This document shows positions 36,179-60,168 of a DNA stretch of 64,000 nt, in pieces. Origin of the DNA: Rubrobacter marinus. Lineage in GTDB: Bacteria > Actinomycetota > Rubrobacteria > Rubrobacterales > Rubrobacteraceae. A program made the translations under genes and the position numbers. The notes beneath the pieces are model-generated. The model saw only the letters and a list, made by a program, of their open reading frames with translations. It searched no databases and had not been told where the DNA came from. How positions within the stretch are numbered: position 1 is the stretch's first letter; every line of letters begins with the position of its first letter. The stretch is from contig NZ_CP045121.1 in NCBI RefSeq assembly GCF_011492965.1, positions 1,488,001-1,552,000 on the forward strand. Direction: 5' to 3'.

Positions 36179-37219
36179 CTAATAACCTTCGTCCTCGAGA
36201 CGCACCTTGCCGCGGAAGAGGCGGTAGATGACGACGAAGTAGACCGCGGCGAGCGCCATGCCAATGCTCCACCAGACGAGCCCGACCGCCTGGCTGTAGT
36301 CCGAGGAGGCCGCGTTGAAGATCGTGAGGCTGTTCCTCGGGTCCACGGCGGGGAGCACGTTCGGGTAGACGGCGAAGACGGTGCTGGTGAGCATCCCGAC
36401 GATGTAGGCGCCGGAGGAGAGGAAGGCCGCCCGGTCGCGCCCCCTGAACGCGAAGTAGACCGTGCCCGCGAGGCCGGCGGCGGCGACGAGCGGCAGGACG
36501 TAGCCGTAGGGGCGCTCGGAGAAGCTCTCGAGCATCCAGGGGCTCACCCAGAACGTGGCGGGGGTGGCGACGGCGGTGAGCAGGACGAGGGCGAGGGAGA
36601 AGGCGCGGGAGAAGCGGAGGGCGCGGGCGTTCAGCTCGTCCTCGGTCTTCAGGGCGATCCAGTTCGCCCCGTGCACGATCAGGGTCGTCAGGGCGAGGAC
36701 GCCTATGAGCACGGTGTAGGGGTCGATGATGCCGGGGTTTTCGGAGAATGGGTTAAAGTCCGTCCACAGCGGCTGGAAAAAGTCGCCGTCCTCGTTCAGC
36801 GGGACGCCGCGCACGACGTTGCCCAGGGCCACCCCGAAAAAGACCGCCAGGAGCGCGCTCCCCAGGAAGAAGCCCGCGTCCCAGAAAGAGGCCCAGAGGG
36901 GGTTCTCTATGTGCCCGCGCAGCTCTATGGAGAGGCCGCGGATTATGAGGAGCCAGAGCACGACGAAGAGGGGCAGGTAGAAGCCGCTGAAGCCCGAGGC
37001 GTACAAGAGCGGGAAGGCAAAGAAGAGGGTGCCGCCGGCGGCGATGATCCAGACCTCGTTCCCGTCCCACACCGGCCCGATCGAGCGCAGGACCAGGCGT
37101 CGCTCCCGCTCGCCTTTGGCGACGAAGGGGTGGATGGCCCCCGCCCCGAGGTCGAAGCCGTCCAGGAGGACGTACACGGTGATCATCAAGGCCACCGCTA
37201 TAAACCAGACCGTTTCCAC
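36179..37219 (-). CDS. cydB: Cytochrome bd ubiquinol oxidase subunit II
   Basis: A 346-residue membrane subunit of the bd-type quinol oxidase, with eight to nine helices. It opens ETVWFIAVALMITVYVLLDG and contains GFDLGAGAIHPFV, PVWDGNEVWIIAAGGTLFFA and RGLSIELRGHIENPLWASFW, all typical of CydB. It starts at GTG 37219, 16 bases after the cydA stop, and is last in cydD-cydC-cydA-cydB. With CydA it reduces O2 to water using quinol, without proton pumping. Confidence 0.97.
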   Translation of the reverse strand: METVWFIAVALMITVYVLLDGFDLGAGAIHPFVAKGERERRLVLRSIGPVWDGNEVWIIAAGGTLFFAFPLLYASGFSGFYLPLFVVLWLLIIRGLSIELRGHIENPLWASFWDAGFFLGSALLAVFFGVALGNVVRGVPLNEDGDFFQPLWTDFNPFSENPGIIDPYTVLIGVLALTTLIVHGANWIALKTEDELNARALRFSRAFSLALVLLTAVATPATFWVSPWMLESFSERPYGYVLPLVAAAGLAGTVYFAFRGRDRAAFLSSGAYIVGMLTSTVFAVYPNVLPAVDPRNSLTIFNAASSDYSQAVGLVWWSIGMALAAVYFVVIYRLFRGKVRLEDEGY

Positions 37220-37235
37220 GGGGAGGCTCCTTTCT

Positions 37236-38597
37236 TCAGGTGGTCGCGGGCTCGGAACCGGGGACGTCCAGCTCGCCCTCTTCGGCCTCGGGGCCGTGGC
37301 TCACCTCGCGCACCATCAAGACGGCGTAGAGCAGGCCCATGACGAGGTACATCCCGGCGAAACCTATGAGCGTGAAGAGCACGCTGCCGGAGGAGATGAG
37401 CGGGGAGACCCCGTCGGCGGTGCGCATGAGGCCGTAGGCGAGCCAGGGCTGCCGGCCGAGCTCGGCGGTGAGCCAGCCGGCCGTATTCGCGATAAACGGG
37501 AACGGGATGGCGAGCATCAGGGCCCAGAGCATCGGGCGCGTCCGGTAGAGCCGGCCGCGCCACAGGAGGAGGGCCGCGATGACCAGGAGCCCTATAAAGA
37601 TCGTCCCGAGGCCGACCATGACGTGGTAGGAGTAGTAGAGGAGCGGGATGTTGTCCGGCCAGTCCTCCCTGGGGAACTCCTCGAGGCCCCGGATCTCGGC
37701 GGTCGGCGAGCCGTACATCAGGATGCCCAGGCCCCCGGGCAGGGCGACGGCGTTGTCGATGCGCCTGTTCTCGACGTCCGGCTGCCCGATGAAGACCAGG
37801 TCGCCCTGGCCGGTCTCGAAGTGGCCCTCGATCGCGGCGAGGGTGACCGGCTGCTTCTCGGCGAGCAGGTCGCTGTGGGCGTGGCCCGTCGGCCAGAGCA
37901 TCCAGACGCTCGCGACGACCCCCACGATCACGCCGACCTTCAAGAAGATCCTGCCGTAGGGCTCGGACCGGCCGGAGAGCAGATAAAAGGCTCCGAGGCC
38001 GGCCATGGCGAACGCCCCGCAGACCGTGGCGCCGCCCATGGTGTGGGCGTACTGCGGGATCATCCACGGGTTCGTGAGCACGGCCCAGTAGTCGTTGAGC
38101 TCGATCTCGCCGTTCTCCAGCGTCCGGTAACCCACGGGGTTCTGCAACCAGGCGTTCGTCGTGATGATGAAGTAGCCCGAGGCCCACGTGCCCAGGAAGA
38201 CCATGAGGGAGGAGAACCAGTGGACCCTCTGGCCGAAGCGGCGCTCGCCGAAGAGGAAGAGCCCGACGAAGGCTGACTCGAGGAAAAAGGCGAAGGCGCC
38301 CTCCATCGCCAGGGTCTGGGCGATGATGTCGCCGGTGAACGCGGAGAAGCGGGCCCAGTTGGTGCCGAACTGGAACTCCATCGGGATGCCGGTCACGACG
38401 CCCATAACGAAGGTGATCGCGAAGATCTTCCCCCAGAACCGCGCCGCCCTGTTCCAGGTCTCGTTGCCGTTCCTCATGTAGACGCTCTTGAGGATGAACA
38501 CGAGCAGCGCGAGCCCCATGGTGAGCTGCGGAAACAGAAAGTGGTAGGCCGCCGTGAAGGCGAACTGCAATCGGCTTGCCAGCAACGCGTCTTCCAA
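37236..38597 (-). CDS. cydA: Cytochrome bd ubiquinol oxidase subunit I
   Basis: A 453-residue heme-bearing subunit. The first heme ligand is His19 in FTAAYHFLFPQLTMGLALLV. GYFIITTNAWLQNPVGYR and PQYAHTMGGATVCGAFAM carry the b558 His, and ELGRQPWLAYGLMRTADGVS is the quinol-site GRQPW motif. The Q-loop is short, so this is the S-subfamily form found in many Gram-positives. High-affinity oxygen reduction supports growth at low O2 or under sulfide/NO stress. It shares strand and order with cydDC and cydB. It is also the nearest terminal oxidase to the sulfur island. Confidence 0.97.
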   Translation of the reverse strand: MEDALLASRLQFAFTAAYHFLFPQLTMGLALLVFILKSVYMRNGNETWNRAARFWGKIFAITFVMGVVTGIPMEFQFGTNWARFSAFTGDIIAQTLAMEGAFAFFLESAFVGLFLFGERRFGQRVHWFSSLMVFLGTWASGYFIITTNAWLQNPVGYRTLENGEIELNDYWAVLTNPWMIPQYAHTMGGATVCGAFAMAGLGAFYLLSGRSEPYGRIFLKVGVIVGVVASVWMLWPTGHAHSDLLAEKQPVTLAAIEGHFETGQGDLVFIGQPDVENRRIDNAVALPGGLGILMYGSPTAEIRGLEEFPREDWPDNIPLLYYSYHVMVGLGTIFIGLLVIAALLLWRGRLYRTRPMLWALMLAIPFPFIANTAGWLTAELGRQPWLAYGLMRTADGVSPLISSGSVLFTLIGFAGMYLVMGLLYAVLMVREVSHGPEAEEGELDVPGSEPATT

Positions 38598-38655
38598 ATC
38601 CTTACCTCCCGTCGAGACGGCCCCCGCGGGTCCGCCGATGTTTGCATTCGAGTCC

Positions 38656-38683
38656 CCGGGCCGCGGAGCGTTTCGCGGCCCGG
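38656..38683. terminator. Hairpin between cydC and cydA
   Basis: A perfect 10-bp stem CCGGGCCGCG / CGCGGCCCGG with an 8-base loop lies in the 125-base gap between cydC and cydA. There is no T tract. It may be a partial terminator or an mRNA processing/stability element that separates transporter from oxidase expression. Confidence 0.5.
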
Positions 38684-38722
38684 CGAAAGCCGGTCATTCG
38701 AGGCGAACGGGAGGCTTCTCCT

Positions 38723-40459
38723 TCACGCTGTTGCCAGCATCCCGTTCTGCACGTCGCGCATCCTGTTGTAGAGGCCGCCCGCCCCCGCGAGCTCCGCGTG
38801 CGTGCCGCGCTCGACGACGCGCCCCGCGTCGAGGACCAGGATCTCGTCCATCGCCTCCAGCCCGACGAGGCGGTGCGTGACCAGGAGGAGGCTCTTTTCC
38901 TGCCCGGGGTCCAGAATGGAGGAGAGCAGCTCCCCCTCGGTGAGGCGGTCGAGGTCGGCCGTCGGCTCGTCGAGGGCGAGGATGGGGGCGCCCTTGAGGA
39001 GCGCCCGCGCCACGGCGAGCCGCCTCCTCTCGCCGCCGGAGAGGCGCGAGCCGCCCTCCCCGACGTACTCGTCGAGCCCCTCCGGCAGGGCGCGCACGAA
39101 GTCCTCCAGACGAGCCCTCCGCAAGACCCTCCGGAGCGCGCCCTCGTCGGCCTCAGGATCGGCTACGAGCAGGTTCTCGCGCAGGGTGCCGGCGAAGACG
39201 TGCGGGTCCTGGGGCGCGACGGCTACCCCCGCGCGGAGGTCGTCGGCGGCGTAGGAGCGGGCGTCTTGGCCGCCGAAGCGGACCGAGCCCTCGTCGGGGT
39301 CGTAGAAGCGCAGGAGGAGGGCCAGGATCGTGCTCTTCCCGGAGCCGCTCGGGCCGACCACGGCGACCTTCCGGCCGGGCGGGAGCCGGAGGGAGACCTC
39401 GTCGAGCACGGGCGGGCCTGCGGGCTCGTAGCGGAAGCTCACCCGGTCGAGCTCGAAGGCGTGGTCTTCGGGAGGGGGGAGCGGATCCTCCGGGTCCCGT
39501 GCCCCGGGCTCTGCGTCCGTGACCTCGAAGAGCCGCCGGCCGGCGCTCAGGGAGCGGTCGAGGGAGCGGAAGGCGGTCCCGAGCGGGGCCACGGCTTCGA
39601 AGCTGCCCAGGACCACGAGCGCCAGGAAGGCGAGCCAGACCCCTTCGATCTCGCCGGCCGCGACGAGCGGGACCGAGAGGACGAGGACGGCCACGAGCGC
39701 GAGGCCCGTCATCGTCTCGGTCGCTGACTCCTGCAGCCCCGCGACGAGGGCCGACCTTCTCTGCGTCCCCTCGAGCTTGCGGTCGAGGGCGGAGATCTCC
39801 TGCTTCTCCGCCCCCTCCCGGCCGAAGGCGAGGAGGTCGCGCGCCCCGCTCACGCCGTCCAGGATGCGCGCGCCGAGCTCCGCCCTCAGCCCGAGCTCGC
39901 GCCGGCCGAGCCCCCGGGAGAGGCGGCGGACGAGGAGCGGCACCCCGACGCCGGTCGCCGCGAGGAACCCCAGGGCGACGAGGGCGAGCGTCCGGTCGAA
40001 GGGAAGGAGGACGGCGAAGGTCAGCAGGGAGACCAGCACGGCCACGACGAAGGGGGAGAGGATCCTCAGGAACACGTTCTCCAGCTCCTCGACGTCGCGG
40101 ACGAAGCGGGAGAGCAGGTCCCCCGAGCGGTAGCCCGAGAGGCGGGCGGGGGCGAGGGGCTCGAGGCGGGCGTAGAAGAACGTCCTGAGGCTCTGGAGCA
40201 GGCGGAAGGTGAGACCGTGGGAGACGAGCCTCTCGGCGTAGCGGGAGAAGGCGCGCGAGACGCTGAAGAAGCGCACGAGGTAGACGGCGAGGGCGAGCTC
40301 CCCGAGTAGGGGCTGGAGCGCCGCGGCGGAGATCACGTACGCCGCGGTCGCCAGCAGGCCCACCCCGCTCACGACCGTCGCCGCGCCGAGCGCCGCCGAG
40401 AGCGCCACCCTCCCTCCGTAGGGCCGGAGAAAGCCGAGCAGCCGCAGGAAGAGCCTCAC
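38723..40459 (-). CDS. cydC: ABC exporter subunit CydC (cytochrome bd assembly)
   Basis: A 578-residue ABC half-transporter: six membrane helices in the first 290 residues, then a nucleotide-binding domain with Walker A VVGPSGSGKSTILALLL, Q-loop VAPQDPHVFAGTLRENLL, signature GGSRLSGGERRRLAVARALL, Walker B APILALDEPTADLD and the switch His in LLLVTHRLVG. CydDC exports cysteine/glutathione or heme-related thiols and is required for cytochrome bd assembly. Its start overlaps the cydD stop (GTGA). Context with cydAB makes the name secure. No frame break was seen, in contrast to cydD. Confidence 0.93.
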   Translation of the reverse strand: MRLFLRLLGFLRPYGGRVALSAALGAATVVSGVGLLATAAYVISAAALQPLLGELALAVYLVRFFSVSRAFSRYAERLVSHGLTFRLLQSLRTFFYARLEPLAPARLSGYRSGDLLSRFVRDVEELENVFLRILSPFVVAVLVSLLTFAVLLPFDRTLALVALGFLAATGVGVPLLVRRLSRGLGRRELGLRAELGARILDGVSGARDLLAFGREGAEKQEISALDRKLEGTQRRSALVAGLQESATETMTGLALVAVLVLSVPLVAAGEIEGVWLAFLALVVLGSFEAVAPLGTAFRSLDRSLSAGRRLFEVTDAEPGARDPEDPLPPPEDHAFELDRVSFRYEPAGPPVLDEVSLRLPPGRKVAVVGPSGSGKSTILALLLRFYDPDEGSVRFGGQDARSYAADDLRAGVAVAPQDPHVFAGTLRENLLVADPEADEGALRRVLRRARLEDFVRALPEGLDEYVGEGGSRLSGGERRRLAVARALLKGAPILALDEPTADLDRLTEGELLSSILDPGQEKSLLLVTHRLVGLEAMDEILVLDAGRVVERGTHAELAGAGGLYNRMRDVQNGMLATA

Positions 40460-42213
40460 GCCGTCACCCCCGCCACGGAGGCCACGACGAGCCGGGCGTA
40501 CGCGCCGCCCCGCGAGAGGAGCTCCTCGTGGGTGCCGACCTCCACGATGCAGCCGTCTTCCAATACGGCGATCCTGTCGGCCGCCCTCGCGGTGTTCAGG
40601 CGGTGGGCGACGACGAGGGTGGTGCGGCCCCGGGCGAGGGGGGGCAGAGCTTCGGCGACGAGCCTCTCGCTCTCGGGGTCGAGGCTCGAGGTGGGCTCGT
40701 CCATCACGAGGATCGGGGCGTCCTTGAGGAAGGCGCGGGCGATGGCGAGCCTCTGCGCCTCGCCGCCCGAGAGGCGGGCCCCGCGCTCGCCGACCGCCGA
40801 GTCGTAGCCCCGCGGGAGCCGCCGGACGAACTCGTGCGCCCCCGAGAGCTCCGCCGCCCGCTCGACCTCGGCCCTGCTCGCCCCGGGGCGCGCCATCCGG
40901 ATGTTCTCGAGCACCGTCCCGTGGAACAGGTGGGGCCGCTGCGGCACCAGCGCCACCCCTCCCGCCAGACTTCGACCGGCAGCGAGGAGATCGGCGCGCC
41001 GTCCGCGTAGATGCCCCCCTCCCGCGGGACCGAGAACCCGAGCAGGAGGTCCACGAGGGTGCTCTTCCCCGAGCCGCTGCGCCCCACGAGCGCGGTCGTC
41101 GTGCCGGAGGACAAGGTGAGGTCGACGCCCCGGAGGGCCTCGCGCCCGCTCCCCGGGTAGGCGAACCGGACGCCTACGAGCTCGACGGTTGGTGCACCGG
41201 TGGGTGGGGGAGGGGTGGTGCGTGCCTCGCGACGCGGCGCGGCGGGGGTTTCGAGGACCTCGAGGATGCGGCTCGCCGCGGCCCTTCCCTCCAGTGCCGC
41301 GTGCCTAGTGGCGCCGAGCTCGCGCAGAGGCTTGTAGAACTCCGGGGCGAGGAGGAGCACGAGGAAGGCCTCATCGAAGGGGATCGCGCCGTTGATCAGG
41401 CGCACCCCCAAGGAGACCGCGACGAGAGCGATGGCGGCGGAGGTCATGAACTCCAGGACGAGCCCGGAGAGGAACGCGTAGCGCAAGACCTTCATCGTCC
41501 GCACCCGGAACTCCTCGCCCACGCGGGCCACCCGCTCCCTCTCGTCGCCCGAGCGGCCGAAGGCCTTGAGCGTCGGCAGCCCCCGCAGGGCGTCCAGGAA
41601 GTGCGCACCCATGCGGGAGAGCGCCGCCCACTGCCGTCCGGCGTGCTCCTCGGCGTAGGAGCCGACCAGGATCATCATCACCGGGATCACGGGCGCCGTC
41701 CCGAGGAGCAACAGGGCGCTCAGGGGGTCCATCGCGAAGACGAAGCCGGAGACCATGAGCGGAACGAGGACGCTCAGGTATGTCTGCGGCAGGTAGCGGG
41801 CGAGGTACGGCTCGAGCTTCTCCACGCCCTCGGTCGCGGTCGTCGTCAGCTCGCCGCAACGCTCCCCGCCGCGTACGAGGGCCCGAGGCGAAGGACGTGC
41901 GAGAACAGACGCTCCCTGAGCCCCGACTTGACCCGCGCCGCCCCTTTGAGGGCCACGACCTCCCTCGTCCACAGGAGCGCGCCCCGCGCCAGCACGGCCC
42001 GAGCAGGAGCAGGACGACCGGCGCCAGGCGCGCGAGGTCCTCCCCGCCTACGAACGCGCCGGCCACCACCTCGCTCAAGAGCGCCATCTGCGCCACGGTG
42101 ATGGCGGCCGCGAGCAGCCCCACCCGACCACCGCGGCGAGGGAGGCCCGGGCGGAGCGGACGAGCCCGAGGAGCGCGCGATCGGGGCGCCGGCCCGACGC
42201 CCTCGCGCCCTCC
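40456..42213 (-). CDS. cydD: ABC exporter subunit CydD, four apparent single-base deletions
   Basis: Pieces in successive frames assemble into one CydD half-transporter of about 580 residues: RPDRALLGLVRSARASLAAV; GLLAAAITVAQMALLSEVVA; RGALLWTREVVALKGAARVK; GELTTTATEGVEKLEPYLAR through the membrane domain; Walker A LVGRSGSGKSTLVDLLLG; then ALVPQRPHLFHGTVLENIRM, signature ARLSGGEAQRLAIARAFL and LVMDEPTSSLDPE. Breaks fall at plus-strand C runs 42123-42125, 41998-42000, 41864-41867 and 40956-40959, each cured by one added C. Losses of one sign, all in homopolymers, argue for sequencing error. The 5' end is approximate because no convincing start codon is readable there. cydC follows with an overlap. 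Confidence 0.8.
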
Positions 42214-43006: not shown

Positions 43007-43276
43007 ATGGGCGTTCGGGTGTACGGAGAGATGGACGAGAGGGCGCGCGGGCACTCCGGGCAGGTTGAGGGATCTCGCCCGGCGGTGTGGGGGAGGGGGC
43101 GGCGCCGCTCTGGCCGGGTCGAGAGCGGGGAAGGTGGGCCTGCCCCCGGCTTCGCGTCGCGAGGCGCGGCGGCGAGTGCGGGCGAGCTCTCGGCGATGGT
43201 CGGGGGCGGGGGCGCTGCTCGCGGGGACCCCGCTCCGGGCTCCGGGCTCGGGCATCTCGTGCGGTGGCGCTCATGA
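43007..43276 (+). CDS. Possible small leader ORF coupled to the FeS-NrfD gene
   Basis: An 89-codon frame starting at ATG 43007 after CCGAGGAGGAGAG, the best ribosome-binding site in the neighbourhood. Its TGA overlaps the ATG of the ferredoxin-NrfD gene as ATGA, and that gene has no ribosome-binding site of its own, so coupled translation is plausible. The first 25 residues (MGVRVYGEMDERARGHSGQV) look ordinary; the rest is Gly/Arg/Ala-rich and may be distorted by G-run errors. No family recognised. It could be a small subunit, a leader, or chance. Confidence 0.35.
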   Translation: MGVRVYGEMDERARGHSGQVEGSRPAVWGRGRRRSGRVESGEGGPAPGFASRGAAASAGELSAMVGGGGAARGDPAPGSGLGHLVRWRS

Positions 43277-44868
43277 CGAGCTACGGCTTCGTAATAGACA
43301 ACCGCAAGTGCATCGGCTGCCACGCGTGCACGGTCGCGTGCAAGGCCGAGCACGAGGTGCCCGTCGGGGTGAACCGGACGTGGGTGAAGTACGTGGAGAA
43401 GGGCGAGTTCCCCAACACCGAGCGGGCGTTCCACGTGATGCGCTGCAACCATTGTGAGGATGCCCCGTGCGTGGAGGCTTGTCCGGTAACGGCGTTGTAC
43501 GTCCGGGACGATGGGATCGTGGACTTCGACTGGGACCGGTGCATCGGGTGCAACGCCTGCATCCAGGCCTGCCCTTACGACGCCTTGTACACCGACCCGG
43601 GCACCCATACCACGGCGAAGTGCAACTACTGCGCCCATCGGGTGGACGTGGGGCTCGAGCCCGCGTGCGTGAACGTCTGTCCGGAAGAGGCCATCATCAG
43701 CGGCGACATTGACGACCCCGAAACCCCGATCAGCCGCCTCCTCGCCCGCGAGAAGGTTACGGTCCGCAAGCCGGAGAAGGGCACCAAGCCGAAGCTCTTC
43801 TACATAGACGGCGACGAGGCCGCGCTGACCCCCGGGGACGCCCCGCCCTCCTCGGACTACATGTGGGGCAACCAGCGGCGCGGCGTCGGCCGGTTCGTCC
43901 CGGGGAACGGGCACGGCGACGGGGCTGGCGTGATGCAAGGCGTCATCCCGCTCGGCCGCAAAGGCGGAGGGGGCTCCCCGGCCGCGACGGAGACGAAGAG
44001 GCTGTCCGGGGGGGCGCGGAGGACCTACGACGCCCCGAACAAGGGGGTCGCGTGGGGCAAGGAGGTCCCCGGCTACGTGTGGACCAAGGCGATAGCGAGC
44101 GGCTCGGTCGCCATCCCGTTCCTGATCGCGGGGCTCGGGGTCGCGGTGGAGGGCGCGGCGCTGTGGGCGGGGACCGTACTCGGCCTGGTGTTCATGGTGG
44201 CGACCGGGGCTTGCTGGTCCTGGACCTCGGGCGTCCGGACCGCTTCCACTACGTGCTGCTCAGGCCCAGTGGAAGAGCTGGCTGGTGCGGGGGCATACAT
44301 CATCACGGGCTTCGGCGGGTTGCTGGCGCTGTGGGCGGCGCTTGATCTCCTCGGGATCGGGGCGGCGACGGCGGTGCTGGCGTGGCCGCTCGTGGCGTTC
44401 GCGGTCGCGACGGCCGTGTACACGGCGTTTCTGTTCGGTCAGGCGAAGGGGCGGGACTTCTGGCAGAGCCCGGCGCTCCCGTTGCACATGCTCGCCCACG
44501 CCGTGGTGGGCGGGGCGGCGGCGCTGTACCTGGCGTCGCTGTTCGTCGGGGGGCTCGAGCCCCTGCGCGAGGTGTTGCGGTGGACCCTCGGGGCGGGGGT
44601 ACTCGTCGCGCTCGTCGTGATGTGGGTCGAGCTCGGGATGCGCCATCCAACCCTCGATGCCGAGCGGGCGGCGAAGATGATCTACGCGGGCCGCTACAAG
44701 GTCCTGTTCTGGGTGGGGTCCGTGCTCCTCGGCTCGCTGGTCCCGCTCGCCGGGGTGGCGGTCGGCGCCCCGCTCGCGGTCGCGACGGCGGCGGTGCTGT
44801 CCCTGGTGGGGATGCTCGCCACCGAACACGCGTGGGTCGAGGCCCCGCAGACCATACCGCTCGCCTGA
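43273..44868 (+). CDS. Ferredoxin-type electron-transfer subunit fused to NrfD membrane subunit, three apparent single-base deletions
   Basis: One polypeptide joins the electron-transfer and membrane subunits of a DMSO-reductase-superfamily complex. Residues 1-190 bind four [4Fe-4S] clusters through CIGCHACTVAC, CNHCEDAPCVEACP, CIGCNACIQACP and CNYCAHRVDV...CVNVCP. A flexible linker follows (about 190-265). An NrfD domain with eight to nine helices starts at KAIASGSVAIPFLIAGLGVA. Between 44206 and 44293 the frame slips three times (GGGGC at 44206-44210, CCC 44265-44267, G5 44289-44293). Correction restores LLVLDLGRPDRFHYVLLRP, the conserved NrfD motif, and the outer frame stays open. No Tat or Sec signal precedes the FeS domain, so it faces the cytoplasm. 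It would pass electrons between the next gene's Mo enzyme and quinone. Confidence 0.88.
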   Translation: MTSYGFVIDNRKCIGCHACTVACKAEHEVPVGVNRTWVKYVEKGEFPNTERAFHVMRCNHCEDAPCVEACPVTALYVRDDGIVDFDWDRCIGCNACIQACPYDALYTDPGTHTTAKCNYCAHRVDVGLEPACVNVCPEEAIISGDIDDPETPISRLLAREKVTVRKPEKGTKPKLFYIDGDEAALTPGDAPPSSDYMWGNQRRGVGRFVPGNGHGDGAGVMQGVIPLGRKGGGGSPAATETKRLSGGARRTYDAPNKGVAWGKEVPGYVWTKAIASGSVAIPFLIAGLGVAVEGAALWAGTVLGLVFMVATGACWSWTSGVRTASTTCCSGPVEELAGAGAYIITGFGGLLALWAALDLLGIGAATAVLAWPLVAFAVATAVYTAFLFGQAKGRDFWQSPALPLHMLAHAVVGGAAALYLASLFVGGLEPLREVLRWTLGAGVLVALVVMWVELGMRHPTLDAERAAKMIYAGRYKVLFWVGSVLLGSLVPLAGVAVGAPLAVATAAVLSLVGMLATEHAWVEAPQTIPLA

Positions 44869-44883: not shown

Positions 44884-47787
44884 ATGCGCACACGGAAGCC
44901 ACGCCGCTCCTTCGTCGAGCGGGCCGCGGCGAGGATAGGGCTCATCCCGAAGCTGGACGAGCCGGAGGATGTAGCCGGAGAGATAGAGCGTCTCTCTCCG
45001 GGCTCGGCCCTTACGGGCTTTCCGCCGCCGGAGAGGTGGGACGACTGGGTCGAGTACGAGGCGAAGGGCTGGACTCGCGGGGAGAAGCGGCGTTACCAGA
45101 TCGTCCCGACCGTCTGCTTCAACTGCGAGTCGGCGTGCGGGCTCCTGGCGTACGTGGACCGGGAGAGCGGGGAGGTCAGGAAGTTCGAGGGGCACCCTTT
45201 GCACCCCGGCAGCCGCGGGCGCAACTGCGCGAAGGGGCCGGCGACCATCAACCAGGTCAGGGACCCGGAGCGCATCCTCTACCCGATGAGGCGCAAGGGG
45301 AAGCGCGGGGGCGGAGAGTGGGAGCGGGTGAGCTGGGACGAGGCGCTCGACGACATAGCGTCGCGCATCCGCAAGGCTCTGGAGGATGGCCGCAACGACG
45401 AGGTCATGTACCACGTCGGGCGGCCCGGCTTCGAGCACCAGCACATGGAGAGGATCTTCCGGGCCTGGCGCGTGGACGCCCACAACTCCCACACCAACGT
45501 CTGCTCCAGCTCCGGGCGCTTCGGGTACCAGCTCTGGGGCGGGTTCGACCGGCCCTCGCCGGACTACGCGAACGCCAGAGCCATCCTGCTCATAAGCGCC
45601 CACCTGGAGAGCGGCCACTACTTCAACCCACACGCCCAGAGGATCATCGAAGGAAAGACGAAGGGCGCGAAGCTCATCGTCGTAGACCCGAGGCTCTCGA
45701 ACTCCGCGGCGATGGCCGACCACTGGCTGCCGGCCAGGCCCGGCTCGGAGGCGGCGCTCCTGCTCGCGATGGCCAAGGTCATCCTCGACGAGGGGCTCTA
45801 CGACGAGGAGTTCCTGCGCGACTGGACCAACTGGCGGCAGTACCTCGAAGAGGAGCACCCCGAGAAGGACCCGGACTCCTTCGAGGCGTTCGTCCGGGCG
45901 CTCGGGGAGGACTACGCGGGGTACACCCCCGAGTACGCGGAGGCCGAGTGCGGGGTCCCGGCCGAAAAGGTGGTGGAGGTTGCGCGCGTGATCGGGCGGG
46001 CCGCCCCCGCTGTGGCGGCGCACAACTGGCGGGCCGCTGCCGCCGCAAACCTCGGAGGCTGGCAGGTCTCGCGCTGCCTGATGCTCCTGAACGTCCTCAC
46101 CGGGAGCTGGGGCCGGCGCGGGGGCACGAGCCCGAACGGCTGGAACAAGTGGCTGCCCCATTTCTGGGAGGAGCCGCCGCCCCAGGGGGTCTGGAACACC
46201 TTCACCTACCCCGACGAGTACCCTTTAGCGCAGTACGAGATGAGCCCGCTCCTGCCCTACTTCCTGATGGAGGGACGGGGGAGGCTCGAGGTCTACTTCA
46301 GCCGCGTCCTGAACCCCGTGTGGACCTACCCGGACGGGTTCTCCTGGATCGAGGCCCTCACGGACGAGGACGCCGTCGGCTGCCACGTCGCCCTCACCCC
46401 GACCTGGAGCGAGACGGCGTACTTCGCCGACTACGTGCTGCCCCTGGGCCACGGCCCCGAGCGCCACGACCTGATGAGCCAGGAGACGCACGCGGGGGTG
46501 TGGCTCTCGTTCCGCCAGCCGGTGTTGCGGGAGGCGGCCAGGAGGCGCGGAGAAGAGGTCCGGTATACGTACGAGACCAACCCCGGCGAGGTCTGGGAGG
46601 ACGACGAGTTCTGGATCGAGCTGAGCTGGCGCATAGACCCGGACGGCGAGATGGGGATAAGGCGCTTCTTCGAGAGCCCCTACAACCCCGGCGAGAAGCT
46701 CACCGTCGACGATTACTACCGCTGGATCTTCGAGAACGCCGTACCCGGCCTCCCGGAGAAGGCGGCCGAAGAGGACCTTACGCCTCTGGAGTACATGCGA
46801 AAGTACGCCGCCTTCGAGATTAAGCGGGAGGTCTACGAGCGGAACATGCGCGAGCTCGGTCCCGAGGAAATCGAAGGGGCCAGGGTCGGGCCCGACGGGA
46901 CCGTAACGACGCCGGAGAGCCGCGACGGCGGCGTGATCCGGGCGAACCGGCGCGTCCCGCACGTCGGCGTCCACGTGGGCGGAAAGGCGCGTGAGGGTTT
47001 CCCGACGACGAGCGGGAAGCTCGAGGTCTGGTCTCCAACCATGGCCGAGTGGGGCTGGCCGGAGTACGCTACCCCCGGGTACGTGAAGAGCCACGTACAC
47101 CCGGAGAACCTCCAAGAAGGGCAGCTCGTGCTGAACGCCACCTTCCGCCTCCCGACGCTCATCCACACCAGGAGCGGCAACGCGAAGTGGCTGAACGAGA
47201 TCTCGAACAAAAACCCGGTCTGGGTCCACCCGAAGGACGCGCGCGAGCGCGGCATCGAGACCGGCGACCTCGTGCGGGTGACGACCGAGATCGGCTACTC
47301 CGTCAACCACGCCTGGGTGACGGAAGGCATCTCGCCCGGCGTCGTCGCCTGCTCCCACCACCTCGGCCGCTGGCGCCGCAAGGGGGACGAGGCGGACCGC
47401 TGGAGCAACTCCCTCGTGGACATAACGCGTGCCGGCGACGGCTGGCGCCTCAGGCAGATCGAAGGCCCCGCCCCTACGCAAGCGTCGACCCCGACACGAG
47501 CCGCATCTTCTGGGGCGACGGCGGGGTGCACCAGAACCTGACCTTCCCCGTCCACCCCGACCCCGTAAGCGGGATGCACTGCTGGCACCAGGCTGTCTAC
47601 CTGACGAAAGCTCGCCCGAAGACCGCTACGGCGACGTCTACGTGGACACCGAAAAGAGCCGCGAGGTCTACCGCCGCTGGCTCGCCATGACCCGCCCCGG
47701 CCCGCGCCCCGACGGCCTCAGGCGCCCCGAGGTCTTCGACCGCCCTACAGGCCGGACCGGAAGGTCTACTTCGTGGACGGAAAATGA
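44884..47787 (+). CDS. Molybdopterin oxidoreductase catalytic subunit (SoeA/PsrA/PhsA-like), three apparent single-base deletions near the 3' end
   Basis: A DMSO-reductase-superfamily enzyme of about 968 residues after correction. The N-terminus binds one [4Fe-4S] cluster (VCFNCESACGLLAY and GRNCAKGPAT). NSHTNVCSSSGRFGYQLWGG lies where the Mo-ligating residue usually sits and offers a Cys. Later motifs include AKLIVVDPRLSNSAAMADHW, VLNPVWTYPDGFSW and LPTLIHTRSGNAKWLNEISN with the pterin-binding C-terminal domain. Frame slips at C runs 47466-47469, 47615-47617 and 47743-47745 interrupt the tail; corrected, it reads YASVDPDTSRIFWGDGGVHQ ... YFVDGK. There is no twin-arginine signal, so it is cytoplasmic. 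This and the adjacent SulP genes favour sulfite oxidation (SoeABC-like), but polysulfide or thiosulfate reduction is possible. Confidence 0.85.
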
Positions 47788-47797
47788 CGCACTCGGC

Positions 47798-49603
47798 ATG
47801 ACGGAAGGGACGGACAACCGCGCGCAGACCCCTAAGCCTTCGGGAGCCCTGGCGAAGGCTTTCCCGGCCTACGCCTGGCTCCGGGGGTACGACCGGGAGG
47901 ACCTGTCCAAAGACTTCACGGCGGCCCTGATCATCACGGTGATGCTGGTCCCGCAGAGCATGGCCTACGCGATGCTGGCGGGGCTGCCGCCGATCTACGG
48001 GCTGTACGCCTCGATCGTCCCGACGATCGTGTACGCCCTGTTCGGCACCTCCCGGCACATGCCGGTCGGCCCTCCGGCGCTGATGGCCCTCCTGACCCTG
48101 ACGTCGGTCTCGGCCCTCGCCCGGTCGGGGACGGAGGAGTACATTGGCCTCGTCCTCCTCCTCGCGCTGACGGTCGGCGTCGTGCAGCTCGCCATCGGTC
48201 TCCTCGGGATGGGGTTCATAACCAACTTCATCTCCCGCCCGGTCCTGAGCGGCTTCATCTACGCCTCCGCGGTCATCATCCTGCTCAGCCAGGTGAAGCA
48301 CCTGCTCGGGATAAGCCTCCCGGAAGGGACCTCGATGCCGGCGCTGGTCGCGGAGATATGGCGCAGCATCGGCGAGACGAACCCCATCGCCCTCGCCCTC
48401 GCGGTCTTCGGCTTCGCCACGATACTCGTCCTCGCCAGGGTCGCGCCGCGGTTGCCCGGGTCCCTGATCGCGGTTGCGGCGAGCACGCTCGCCGTCTTCC
48501 TCTTCGCCCTCGACGGGAGGGTGGACATCGTCGGGGAGGTGCCCCGCGGGCTCCCGGACCTCTCCCTTCCGGTCCTCGACGTAGAGGCGATCCGGGCCCT
48601 CCTCCCCGCGGCCCTCGTCGTCGCCTTCGTCGGGTTTATAGAGTCGATCTCGGTCGCCAAAGCCGTCGCCGCCAGGGAGCGTTACAAGATCGACTCGAAC
48701 GCCGAGCTCAGGGCTTTAGGGCTCGCCAACGTCGCCGCGGCGTTCTCCTCGGGCTTCCCGGTCGCGGGCTCCTTCTCGCGCACGGCCGTCCAGTACCAGT
48801 CGGGAGGCCGGACGCAGGCCGCCTCGATCATGACCGCCCTGATGGTTGTCGCGACCATCCTGTTCCTGACCCCCCTCTTCTACTACCTGCCGAACGCGGC
48901 GCTTGCGGCCGTGATCGCCGTCGCCGTCTACGGGCTGCTCGACTTCAAGGAGGTCCGGCGCGCCTTCAGGACCAGAAGGGCCGACGGGCTGGCGCTCCTG
49001 ATCACCTTCGCAGTAACCCTCCTCGTCGGGGTGGAGCAGGGGATCATCGCCGGAGCCGCCTTCGCCCTGCTCGCCTTCGTCAGGCGCACGGCCTACCCCA
49101 ACACAACCGAGCTCGGCTACGTGGAGAGCGAGGACGCCTTCCTCGGCCTGCGCAGCTACCCCGAAGCGAAGACGTACCCCGAAGCCCTGATCGTGCGCTT
49201 CGACGCCCGCCTCTACTTCGCCAACATCCCCTTCCTGGAAGAGTGGCTGATCTCCGCGGTCGCCGACCGCTCGCGCCTGAAGTGGATCGTCCTCGACTGC
49301 CGCGGCGTGAATGGCATCGACTTGACCGCCATAGAAGGACTCGAAAACCTGGTCTCCAAGTACCGCGCCACGGACATCGAGGTCCTGCTCACCCACGTAA
49401 AGCTCCAGGTCCGTAAACCCCTCGAAGCCGCCGGCTGGAACGAAAAGTTCGAAGGCAGCATGAGATACCCAACCACCAGAGACGCCCTCAGAAACATCGG
49501 CCTCCTCGACGAACGAGAGGCCCGTGCCACCCACAACGGCCCCCGCCCCGACACACCCAACCCCCCCGCGAGCCCGACGTACCCGCAAAACCTCGGAGAC
49601 TAG
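47798..49603 (+). CDS. SulP family sulfate permease with STAS domain (copy 1)
   Basis: A 601-residue SLC26/SulP transporter. It opens WLRGYDREDLSKDFTAALII, followed by the family signature VPQSMAYAMLAGLPPIYGLY, about 12-14 helices (GFIESISVAKAVAARERYKI is the conserved helix 10 region) and a C-terminal STAS domain from about residue 440 (ALIVRFDARLYFANIPFLEE, WIVLDCRGVNGIDLTAIEGL). SulP proteins move sulfate, bicarbonate or related anions; direction is not fixed by sequence. The start lies 11 bases after the Mo-subunit stop, so it belongs to the same operon, suggesting it handles the sulfate or other oxyanion made or used by that enzyme. Confidence 0.93.
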   Translation: MTEGTDNRAQTPKPSGALAKAFPAYAWLRGYDREDLSKDFTAALIITVMLVPQSMAYAMLAGLPPIYGLYASIVPTIVYALFGTSRHMPVGPPALMALLTLTSVSALARSGTEEYIGLVLLLALTVGVVQLAIGLLGMGFITNFISRPVLSGFIYASAVIILLSQVKHLLGISLPEGTSMPALVAEIWRSIGETNPIALALAVFGFATILVLARVAPRLPGSLIAVAASTLAVFLFALDGRVDIVGEVPRGLPDLSLPVLDVEAIRALLPAALVVAFVGFIESISVAKAVAARERYKIDSNAELRALGLANVAAAFSSGFPVAGSFSRTAVQYQSGGRTQAASIMTALMVVATILFLTPLFYYLPNAALAAVIAVAVYGLLDFKEVRRAFRTRRADGLALLITFAVTLLVGVEQGIIAGAAFALLAFVRRTAYPNTTELGYVESEDAFLGLRSYPEAKTYPEALIVRFDARLYFANIPFLEEWLISAVADRSRLKWIVLDCRGVNGIDLTAIEGLENLVSKYRATDIEVLLTHVKLQVRKPLEAAGWNEKFEGSMRYPTTRDALRNIGLLDEREARATHNGPRPDTPNPPASPTYPQNLGD

Positions 49604-49694: not shown

Positions 49695-51092
49695 ATGTTG
49701 TTCGAGAGGATCTACGACGAGGACCTGGCGCAGGCCAGTTACTTTATCGGGTGTCAGCGGGCGGGTACTGCGGTTGTCGTGGACCCCCGGCGCGACGTGG
49801 GGGTCTACCTGGAGAAGGCCGAGAAGCACGGCATGCAGATCCTCGCCGTCACCGAGACGCACATCCATGCGGACTACCTCTCGGGTTCCAGGGAGCTTGC
49901 GGCTGCGACGGGGGCGACGCTGTACCTCTCCGACGAGGGCGACGCCGACTGGAAGTACGGCTTCGAGGGCGAGGGCTCTACGACGGGAGCGAGATCCGGG
50001 TGGGCAACGTCGTGCTGACGGCCGTCCACACGCCGGGCCACACCCCCGAGCACCTCTCGTTCCTCGTCACCGACGGCGCTACGGCGGACGAGCCCGGGTA
50101 CATGCTCACCGGCGACTTCGTCTTCGTCGGCGACATCGGCAGGCCCGACCTACTCGACGAGGCCGCGGGCGGTAAGGACACGCGCTTCGGCGGGGCCAGG
50201 CAGATGTTCGCCAGCCTGCGCGACAAGTTCCTCACCCTGCCCGACCACGTACAGGTCTGGCCGGGACACGGGGCGGGGAGCGCCTGCGGCAAGGCTTTGG
50301 GGCCGTGCCCACCTCCACCGTCGGCTACGAGCGGCTCTTCTCGTGGTGGGGAGCTTACCTCGAACGGCGGGACGAGGATGGGTTCGTCGAGAAGCTGCTT
50401 GAGGGCAGCCCGACGCGCCTGTCTACTTCGGGCGCATGAAGCTCCAGAACAAGTCCGGGCCTGCGCTGCTTGGGGAGAGGCCGCCGCTCGTGCGCCACGA
50501 AGGCCGCGCGCTCGCCGGGGAGATCGAGCGGGGCGCGGTCCTGTTCGTCGACACCCGTTCGCGCGGGGCGCTCGCCGACGGCATGGTGCCGGGTGCCCTG
50601 AACGTCCCGGCCGGCAGCAGCTTCGTCACGTGGGCGTCGTGGGTGGTAGACCCCGAGGGGGACGACAGGCCGATCGTGGTGCTCGCAAAGGACGAGGCCG
50701 AGGCGAAGCTCCTTCGCGACCGGCTCTCGTACGTCGGCATAGACCGCGTCGAGGGCTACGTCACGGACCTCGAAGGGCTCGAAAAGGAGCCCGTGCCCAC
50801 CGTCTCCCCGGAAGAGCTCGACGAGATGGAAGACCCCTTCGTGCTCGACGTGCGCGCTAAAGGCGAGCACGAGGCCGGGTACATCCCGGGGGCGATCCAA
50901 CTGCACGGCGGGCGCGTGATGTGGCACCTCGACGATCTGCCGGGGGATAAGCCCATCGTCATCCACTGCCAGACCGGCGCGCGCGCAGCCGTCGTCGCGA
51001 GCGCCCTGAGGGCCGCGGGCTTCGGCCCGGTGCTGGAGCTCGAAGGCAGCTACGAGGGCTGGGCCGCCCGCAAGCAGCGGGTCCCCGCGTAG
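49695..51092 (+). CDS. MBL-fold persulfide dioxygenase fused to tandem rhodanese domains, three apparent single-base deletions
   Basis: About 466 residues after correction. The metallo-beta-lactamase domain has [56 protein letters not shown] and [15 protein letters not shown], matching persulfide dioxygenase-rhodanese proteins (CstB-like), which oxidise glutathione or protein persulfide to sulfite. Two rhodanese domains follow. The first ([15 protein letters not shown] ... [11 protein letters not shown]) lacks the active Cys; the second has [17 protein letters not shown] with Cys in the loop. Frame slips at GGG 49973-49975, GGGG 50299-50302 and GGG 50403-50405 each need one added G. ATG 49695 follows CGAAGGAGGCAGTT. 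It has its own promoter, probably ArsR-controlled. The HxHxD motif is followed by Tyr rather than His. Confidence 0.88.
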
Positions 51093-51145: not shown

Positions 51146-51178
51146 GGCATGTCCAACCTCTTATCCAACGGAGGCATC

Positions 51179-51511
51179 GTGGTGTATCAGCAGAGTTTTT
51201 CAGAAGACGCTTTTCAGGAGATCTTCCCGGAAGAGGTCGAACGGTGGCGGCAGAGGGGCGCTCGCATCGTCGACGTGCGCGAGAGGTGGGAGTACGAGGG
51301 GGGGCACCTGCCGGGGGCGCGGAACGTCCCGCTCGGCGAGCTGCCGGAGCGCGTGGAGGAGCTGCGGGGAAGCCCCGTGGTGCTCGTGTGCGCGAGCGGG
51401 AACCGCTCGGAGGGGGCCGCGCGGTTCCTGAGCCGGAGCGGATTCGGCGAGGTGGCGAACCTTCTGGGCGGGACGGCCGGCTGGGCGCAGCGCGGCCGGC
51501 CTCTAGAGTAG
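51179..51511 (+). CDS. Single-domain rhodanese
   Basis: A 110-residue rhodanese: FPEEVERWRQRGARIVDVRE, WEYEGGHLPGARNVPLGELP, and the active-site loop VVLVCASGNRSEGAARFL with catalytic Cys. It ends with the LLGGTAGWAQRGRPL typical of the fold. It would transfer sulfane sulfur between persulfide carriers. GTG 51179 is chosen because GGAGG lies six bases upstream (an alternative is GTG 51182). It precedes the second SulP gene by eight bases, so the pair is an operon. Confidence 0.9.
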   Translation: MVYQQSFSEDAFQEIFPEEVERWRQRGARIVDVRERWEYEGGHLPGARNVPLGELPERVEELRGSPVVLVCASGNRSEGAARFLSRSGFGEVANLLGGTAGWAQRGRPLE

Positions 51512-51519
51512 GCCGGAGG

Positions 51520-53220
51520 ATGTTCGAGAAGGTGGTCCCCGCGGCCGGCTGGCTGCGTCGCTACCGGAGCGAGGACCTCGCCGGGGACGTGTCGGCGGGC
51601 CTGATCGTGGCGGTGATGCTCGTCCCTCAAGGGATGGCCTACGCGATGCTCGCCGGCCTGCCCCCCGTGGTCGGGCTGTACGCCTCGATCGTGCCGCTCT
51701 TCGTGTACGCCCTGTTCGGGTCCTCGCGCCAGCTCGCGGTCGGGCCCGTCGCCATCGTCTCCCTGTTGACCCTCACCGGCGTCTCGGCCGTCGCCGAGCC
51801 GGGCACGGGCGAGTTCGTCGCACTGGCGGCGCTGCTGGCGCTCATGGTGGGGGCCATACAGTTCGGGCTCGGGCTGCTTCGGGCGGGCTTCGTCGTCAAC
51901 TTTCTCTCCCACGCCGTCGTCAGCGGGTTCACGTCTGCGGCGGCGATCGTGATCGGGCTGAGCCAGCTCGGCCAGCTCCTCGGCGTGAAGCTCGAGTCGA
52001 GCTTCTCCGTCCCGTTGCTGCTGTGGGAGGCGGCGGGGAGGCTCGCGGAGGTCGACCCGCCGACGCTCGCCATCGGGGTCGGGAGCATCGTCGCTCTGGT
52101 CGTGTCCAAAAGGGTCTCGCCGCGCTTCCCGGCGCCGCTCCTGGTTGTGGCCGCATCGACCCTTTTGGTCTACGCCTTCGGCCTGGACGAGCGGGGGGTG
52201 AGCATCGTCGGCGAGGTGCCGGGCGGCCTGCCCGCTCTCGCGCTACCGGCGATCGACGCGGGCGCGGTCGTCGCCCTGATCCCGACCGCCCTCACCATCG
52301 CCTTCGTCGGCTTTATGGAGTCGATAGCGGTCGCAAAGTCCATCGCCGCCAGGGAGAAGTACGAGGTCGACGCGAACCGGGAGCTCGTCGGGCTCGGGCT
52401 CGCCAACGTCTTCGGCTCCGCGTTCTCGTCGTACCCGGTGACGGGCGGGTTCTCGCGCTCGGCCGTGAACTACGGCGCCGGGGCGCGCGCGCCGCTCGCC
52501 TCGGTCATCACCGCAACCCTCGTCCTCCTGACCCTCGTCCTGTTCACCCCGCTGTTCTACTACCTGCCGAGCGCGGTGCTGGCGGCGATCGTGATGGTCG
52601 CGGTCTACGGTCTGATCGACGTGGGGGAGCTCGTGCGCCTGTTCAAGGTCAAGCGGGCCGATGCGCTGACCCTGGTCCTGACCTTCGCCGTCACGCTCCT
52701 CGTCGGCATAGAGCAGGGGATAATCGCCGGCATCGTCTTCTCGCTACTCGTCTTCGTGTGGCGCAGCGCCCAGCCTCACACGACGGAGGTGGGCTACCTC
52801 GCGGACGAGGACGTTTTCCGCAACGTGAGCCGCCACCCCGAGACCCGGACCTTCCCCGGGGCCCTGATCGTGCGCGTCGACGCCTCGCTCTACTTCGCGA
52901 ACACGGCGTTCCTGAAGGGCTGGCTCGACGACGCGGTCTCCCGCCGCCCGGACCTCCGGTACCTGATCCTGGACTTCTCCGCCGTCAACGACATAGACGC
53001 CGTGGCCCTGGAGACGCTGGAGGGACTGGCGACGGAGCTCGGGTCTCGCGGGATCGAGCTGCACTTCGCCGGCATGAAGGGCCCGGTGCGCGACGTCGTC
53101 GCCCGCTCCGCCTGGCCGAAGGAACTGGGGAAGAACGCGACCCACCTCTCCGTGAAGCACGCCCTCGACCGCCTGGACCTCTGGCGCCAGCCGAGCAAGG
53201 CGCCCCAACCCACGGCATAA
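51520..53220 (+). CDS. SulP family sulfate permease with STAS domain (copy 2)
   Basis: A 566-residue SulP transporter closely similar in layout to copy 1: WLRRYRSEDLAGDVSAGLIV, VPQGMAYAMLAGLPPVVGLY, GFMESIAVAKSIAAREKYEV, then a STAS domain (ALIVRVDASLYFANTAFLKG, LILDFSAVNDIDAVALETLE). The STAS domain regulates transport in the family. The ATG at 51520 is preceded by GGCCGGAGG. Linkage to a rhodanese rather than to the Mo enzyme suggests a different regulatory setting or substrate (sulfate, sulfite, thiosulfate or bicarbonate; not resolvable). It ends just before a 40-bp palindromic terminator. Confidence 0.93.
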   Translation: MFEKVVPAAGWLRRYRSEDLAGDVSAGLIVAVMLVPQGMAYAMLAGLPPVVGLYASIVPLFVYALFGSSRQLAVGPVAIVSLLTLTGVSAVAEPGTGEFVALAALLALMVGAIQFGLGLLRAGFVVNFLSHAVVSGFTSAAAIVIGLSQLGQLLGVKLESSFSVPLLLWEAAGRLAEVDPPTLAIGVGSIVALVVSKRVSPRFPAPLLVVAASTLLVYAFGLDERGVSIVGEVPGGLPALALPAIDAGAVVALIPTALTIAFVGFMESIAVAKSIAAREKYEVDANRELVGLGLANVFGSAFSSYPVTGGFSRSAVNYGAGARAPLASVITATLVLLTLVLFTPLFYYLPSAVLAAIVMVAVYGLIDVGELVRLFKVKRADALTLVLTFAVTLLVGIEQGIIAGIVFSLLVFVWRSAQPHTTEVGYLADEDVFRNVSRHPETRTFPGALIVRVDASLYFANTAFLKGWLDDAVSRRPDLRYLILDFSAVNDIDAVALETLEGLATELGSRGIELHFAGMKGPVRDVVARSAWPKELGKNATHLSVKHALDRLDLWRQPSKAPQPTA

Positions 53221-60066: not shown

Positions 60067-60168
60067 GCAAAAAGTTCACGCGCATGGGAGATGGCGGGGG
60101 CGGCGCCCGGTGCGACGATTGGGTTGGCGGCAGGACCGCCGCAGTACCGCGCAGGAAAGGGAGCAGCG

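Follow-up and report, generated by a model that had tools for sequence, protein, structure and literature searches.

In a window of 64,000 nucleotides (the whole stretch of Rubrobacter marinus DNA analyzed here), a single open frame joins a 16-cysteine ferredoxin domain to an NrfD-type membrane domain, and genes for a molybdopterin (Mo) catalytic subunit, two SulP-type permeases, a persulfide dioxygenase (PDO)-like protein, and a rhodanese follow on the same strand (Table 1). Both domains of the product, as proposed in the preliminary description, are recognized by Pfam: Fer4_11 at residues 53–145 (E 1e-22) and NrfD at residues 359–519 (E 2e-15, over the cut-off). The ferredoxin domain (residues 1–187) matches PsrB (2vpw_B, E 3e-54) and has exactly 16 cysteines within residues 1–185, all of them invariant in two alignments (19 and 38 sequences). 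This is the arrangement of 16 cysteines in four motifs that marks four-cluster FeS subunits of the PsrB/NrfC/TtrB type.

For the membrane half we used the structure model of a relative that is 74% identical (L038); the ferredoxin domain of that whole-protein model is mostly at pLDDT <50 and unreliable, and no inference was taken from it. The NrfD part consists of eight high-pLDDT helices that match ActC (6lod_C, Z 26.3) and PsrC (2vpw_C, Z 21.5), and the features by which the NrfD/PsrC family is recognized—8 to 10 helices, two four-helix bundles, and conserved quinone-site residues—are found in the fused family. Between the conserved blocks lies a linker (residues 188–247), predicted to be disordered (pLDDT <50 at 190–253 in the L038 model). 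At about 60 residues it is shorter than the roughly 75 first proposed, and comparison with relatives confirms that it contains no frame break.

A genome search for SulP found no others beyond the two at this locus, and the same genome gave no strong SQR match. Upstream of the fusion, on the opposite strand, cydAB and an ABC pair that we take to be cydDC occupy positions 36179–42101; in one relative (L126), CydB directly adjoins the fusion. Multicopper oxidase domains lie at 60091–62106 (+ strand).

Table 1. Features of the fused locus and its surroundings (positions within the window)
Feature	Position	Strand	Basis or remark
Cytochrome bd oxidase, subunits II and I; may act as the quinol oxidase	36179–38597	−	Domain match
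Fused FeS–NrfD gene	43273–44868	+	One open frame, 531 aa, ATG to stop
Ferredoxin domain, 16 Cys (four 4Fe-4S motifs), PsrB/NrfC/TtrB type	43273–43830	+	Pfam/NCBIfam, 2vpw_B, invariant Cys
Linker, ~60 residues, variable in length and sequence	43834–44013	+	Alignment; low pLDDT in L038 model
NrfD/PsrC-type membrane domain, eight helices	44014–44865	+	Pfam NrfD; L038 structure model
Frame-scrambled stretch within NrfD	44206–44293	+	Three one-base gaps at homopolymers, against intact relatives
Molybdopterin catalytic subunit without a Tat-like signal; 885 aa in the assembly	44884–47541	+	Pfam Molybdopterin, Molydop_binding, Fe4S4
SulP-type sulfate permease with STAS	47849–49603	+	TIGR00815 over cut-off
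Persulfide-dioxygenase-like MBL + rhodanese gene	49695–51092	+	467 aa in one gene in L118; frame-broken here
Single-domain rhodanese	51149–51511	+	Domain match
Second SulP-type permease	51574–53220	+	

Assembly Errors and the Reality of the Fusion

Could a frame error in the assembly have joined two separate genes? The assembly does have frame errors, both in the fused gene and in its neighbors. In the interval 44206–44293, three G/C runs are each one base shorter than in two intact relatives; the three gaps scramble about 29 NrfD residues, and the correct frame is regained after the third. Two quinone-site positions that are D and S in 37/37 relatives read T and E in the window copy because of these errors. 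Further frame breaks affect the gene at 49695–51092 and the C terminus of the Mo subunit (47466–47621), which by comparison with L118 passes from frame 1 to 3 to 2 and continues to about 47746; in relatives this subunit is 962–966 aa long. The linker, however, is untouched, and the argument for a genuine fusion therefore stands. Moreover, the domains are joined in one continuous frame in 80/80 of the best named loci (the best 80 of 578 confirmed relatives) and in 12 genomes of the family. Because relatives carry the same one-frame fusion, we rejected an artefactual origin, which has practically no chance of being correct. The preliminary description had held that errors further downstream did not create the fusion; they did not, although errors also lie inside it, in the NrfD part.

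Distribution and Ancestry of the Fusion

How widespread is the fused gene? The best 80 of the 578 relatives span about ten phyla, with carriers in Bacteroidota, Calditrichota, Chlorobiota, Planctomycetota, Acidobacteriota, Nitrospinota, Gemmatimonadota, Spirochaetota, Latescibacterota, Krumholzibacteriota, KSB1, and the Rubrobacteraceae. Within the genus and family, the full fusion is present at 69–78% identity in 12 of 35 sampled genomes (among 60 sampled relatives). Matches occurred in 46 of the 396 genomes of the phylum sample: 38 were scored as fused (31 full-length, one partial, and six FeS-only matches in frames of 418–542 aa, two of which were checked) and 8 as split, of which five were checked. 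Plasmids carry the fusion in Rhodococcus jostii RHA1, Thermomicrobium roseum, Natrinema, and Halomarina.

The initial view of the fusion as an oddity, set against the usual separate genes, is thus not borne out, as this domain order is widespread across phyla. The preliminary description had counted a fusion both widespread and already described as a refutation: half of this holds, as widespread it is, and it would be at least partly in print if it is the same as PSRLC3 (see below). A literature search found no description of the fusion, a result that does not establish that it is undescribed. Overall, the fused gene is genuine and common, the preliminary description is right in most respects, and the product is most likely a fused version of an enzyme type already known.

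The fused and split labels require two changes on a tree of the ferredoxin domain, and a single fused clade is not rejected (p-AU 0.43). In this tree the window sequence groups with those of the Rubrobacteraceae, which the haloarchaeal plasmid sequences adjoin, and the unfused Sulfurovum sequence forms a long branch with no settled place. In genome G292, the length of the open frame and a tblastn match in a single piece suggested a second, independent fusion, which was rejected because the translation has a stop after the FeS gene. Two haloarchaeal plasmid proteins (L035 and L037) have a Gly/Cys-rich insert in the linker, absent from the aligned bacterial fused proteins, that may be a metal site.

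Mo Partner and Sulfur Genes

Which genes accompany the fusion? In 67/80 named loci (best 80 of 578) and in 12/12 family loci, a Mo gene of the same strand lies downstream of the fused gene, no more than 500 nt away. At least one of SulP, MBL, rhodanese, TusA, and DsrE is encoded in 47 of the same 80 loci and in 11 of the 12; the other 33 of the 80 show none of the five in the flank covered, and some of the contigs are short. Over 86 loci, the neighbor clusters (each named from one representative) include SulP (36), PDO-rhodanese (34), SQR-like (15), a Crp-like regulator (13), two Sulf_transp clusters (12 and 12), MoaD (12), and MoaE (11). Four Chlorobiaceae loci (L091, L100, L109, and L110) have the fused gene and Mo gene followed by matches to DsrE, rhodanese, and TusA. 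Genes for ArsR-like or CsoR-like regulators, possibly persulfide sensors, lie near the fused pair in L034, L036, L113, L153, and L156.

The association with PDO-rhodanese extends to whole genomes. In the phylum sample, this gene was present in 28/38 fused-positive genomes vs. 96/358 others (Fisher P = 2e-8, kinship ignored). Among the fused-positive named genomes (50 of the best 80), it was found in 37; four of the remaining 13 have DsrA over the cut-off and two a strong partial DsrA, which leaves 7 of 50 without both PDO-rhodanese and DsrA. AprA was over the cut-off in 0/50 of these genomes, and the 14 controls of the search also gave no positive.

Membrane Orientation and Quinone Site

On which side of the membrane does the FeS part lie? 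The fused protein itself has no export signal, and Tat signals were found in 0/79 N termini of the partner Mo subunits by a crude rule that flags two of four control Mo subunits (Halobiforma and PhsA were caught, TtrA and Azoarcus missed). Lysines and arginines in the loops of the fused NrfD number 15.4 on the FeS side vs. 0.5 on the other, and the sign of this bias is the same in 37/37 sequences (range, 12–19 on the ferredoxin side and 0–3 opposite). Six relatives with split genes show the opposite sign: TtrC of E. coli, the Azoarcus and Sulfurovum proteins, and the three actinobacterial split NrfD (L146, L147, and L148); here helices were placed by hydropathy and charge sums read manually. 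Twin-arginine Mo genes accompany these reversed-charge relatives, which are mostly exported. The FeS part of the fusion thus most likely faces the cytoplasm, as originally suggested.

Is the quinone site retained? The quinone residues listed for TtrC in an excerpt of PMC8076601 (D75, S93, Y146, and T147) align to D, S, Y, and T that are invariant in 37/37 fused proteins. Because these residues are kept and the loop charges are flipped, the quinone site should, judging from the sequences, face inward, the reverse of its orientation in exported relatives. The same excerpt hypothesizes an inverted NrfD-like anchor for SoeC, since the partners of SoeC are cytoplasmic. The Psr/Ttr arrangement, in which the catalytic subunit is Tat-exported and the FeS part and quinone site lie outside, is not the one that the crude Tat rule and the loop charges indicate for the fused pair.

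A Candidate Sulfite:Quinone Oxidoreductase

What might the complex do? We infer its substrate, direction, electron route, and the role of the fusion from genomic context, from which the fused protein is probably, on balance, the half that transfers electrons and reduces quinone in a two-gene, cytoplasm-facing Mo enzyme, itself a candidate sulfite oxidizer. A sulfite:quinone oxidoreductase is favored because of the cytoplasmic location, the quinone site, the two kinds of sulfite-producing neighbors, and the sulfate permeases. In the proposed mechanism, sulfite would arise in the cytoplasm through persulfide dioxygenase or, in green sulfur bacteria, through reverse Dsr, and the Mo subunit would oxidize it to sulfate. 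Electrons would leave the Mo subunit through its own 4Fe-4S cluster and cross the four clusters in the ferredoxin part of the fusion; reduction of quinone would take place in the first NrfD helix bundle, on the cytoplasmic side; the quinol would be reoxidized, perhaps by the nearby bd oxidase; and SulP would carry the sulfate away. The fusion attaches the beginning of NrfD helix 1 to the ferredoxin domain and would thereby hold NrfD in the orientation in which its quinone site points inward. The preliminary description had the fusion fixing the path from Mo enzyme to quinone in one chain, and it is fair to infer that the proposed path is so fixed, the Mo subunit itself remaining a separate protein. 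Several points count against sulfite as the substrate. According to a passage of PMC9774590, CstB-related PDO-rhodanese proteins can yield thiosulfate, not free sulfite. In addition, the best scores of the Mo subunit, to PhsA, DmsA, and related models, are all far below the cut-offs. The genomes and loci that show none of the sulfur genes sought (7 of 50 and 33 of 80, respectively), the lack of a positive control in the AprA search, and the lack of a strong SQR match in the genome of the window also weigh on this side.

Might the electrons flow the other way? PsrB and PsrA are among the closest solved relatives, the best NCBIfam match of the Mo subunit is PhsA, and the neighbors include TusA, DsrE, and rhodanese, which carry sulfane sulfur. 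These observations would suit a cytoplasm-facing polysulfide, persulfide, or thiosulfate reductase running in the Psr/Phs-like direction, with quinol electrons reducing sulfane sulfur inside the cell. The neighboring and co-occurring genes are oxidative, however (SQR-like, persulfide dioxygenase, SulP, and Dsr in Chlorobiaceae), and many carriers of the fused pair belong to mostly aerobic groups, so that we regard a reductase as unlikely. It is also conceivable, given the broad names of the Mo family, that the enzyme acts on formate or a different small molecule and that the sulfur genes are nearby by chance; a passage of PMC8076601 tentatively names an uncharacterized NrfD group, FqoABC, as formate:quinone oxidoreductase and places actinobacterial and Chlorobi members in FqoC. 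Yet the sulfur neighborhood recurs across phyla, and the FqoC reference, ct0494, appears in an excerpt as one of three subunits, with eight TMHs and no fusion, making this alternative very improbable.

How could a cytoplasmic complex have arisen from an exported one? In a tentative scenario, which may well be wrong, an ancestral exported three-subunit complex like that of Sulfurovum lost its Tat signal, NrfD flipped, and the fusion, acting as a topology lock, made the flip irreversible. The outcome would be one widespread, mostly unannotated family of cytoplasmic sulfite:quinone oxidoreductases in about ten bacterial phyla and the haloarchaea, which might supply a missing sulfite-oxidizing step in PDO heterotrophs without APS reductase.

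If the sulfite-oxidizing reading is true, the fused enzyme can go unnoticed in surveys that count SoeABC only when its three genes are separate. Excerpts of a sediment survey (PMC12345210) report that SoeABC was not detected, that persulfide dioxygenases were common in Bacteroidota and Gemmatimonadota, among others, and that they rose in Planctomycetota transcripts; the fused pair occurs in all three phyla (best 80 of 578 relatives). Although the novelty is modest, the fused pair would be of use in two ways. Its NrfD module, apparently flipped and pinned by the fusion, is a one-chain test case for whether such a module works upside down relative to its kin; and for lineages in which an AprA search (with negative controls too) detected no APS reductase, the pair is a sulfite oxidase candidate.

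Relation to Known Systems

PSRLC3 is a PsrBC fusion. For green sulfur bacteria, an excerpt of PMC6338057 names PSRLC3 as an alternative system for sulfite oxidation, and a passage of a genome note describes it as "2 genes." As described, this layout resembles that of the fused pair in the Chlorobiaceae loci, and the shared two-gene layout, together with these statements, suggests that the fused family includes PSRLC3, an identity that rests on the two-gene description. SoeABC, likewise compared through its description, has cytoplasmic Mo and FeS parts and an NrfD-like anchor expected to be inverted (in the same excerpt of PMC8076601), as in the fused pair, whereas it is encoded by three genes. 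The fused pair thus shares its cytoplasmic location and lack of a Tat signal (by the crude test and loop charges) and differs in having one gene in place of separate SoeB and SoeC.

PsrABC, TtrABC, and PhsABC share the Mo and four-cluster FeS families with the fused pair, and Psr and Ttr also the NrfD-type anchor, whereas PhsC is annotated as a cytochrome b subunit. All three are encoded by split genes and exported, E. coli TtrA and PhsA starting with twin-arginine signals; TtrC has the same quinone-site residues as the fused family but reversed loop charges. A different subunit fusion in the same complex superfamily is ActB of alternative complex III, which is next to the NrfD-like ActC. The ActB FeS domain, within a chain of 933–1039 aa (PDB chain lengths), is fused to a Mo-like part, not to NrfD.

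A plasmid complex of Sulfurovum mangrovi (L140) comes closer: its FeS protein is 50% identical and its Mo subunit belongs to the same family (36–44%). It differs in having two separate genes, a Tat signal before the Mo match, a TorD chaperone, and lysines and arginines on the opposite side. Because its FeS gene ends in a linker-like tail, its NrfD gene begins right after, and a Tat-like start precedes the Mo gene, it looks like an unfused, exported counterpart of the fused family. A second, split FeS/NrfD/Mo complex is present in the phylum genomes L146, L147, L148, L151, and L152; four were inspected, and all four have a twin-arginine Mo gene. The Mo gene of this split complex is similar to the one in the plasmid complex of Azoarcus, whose TorD chaperone also has matches at two of the loci.
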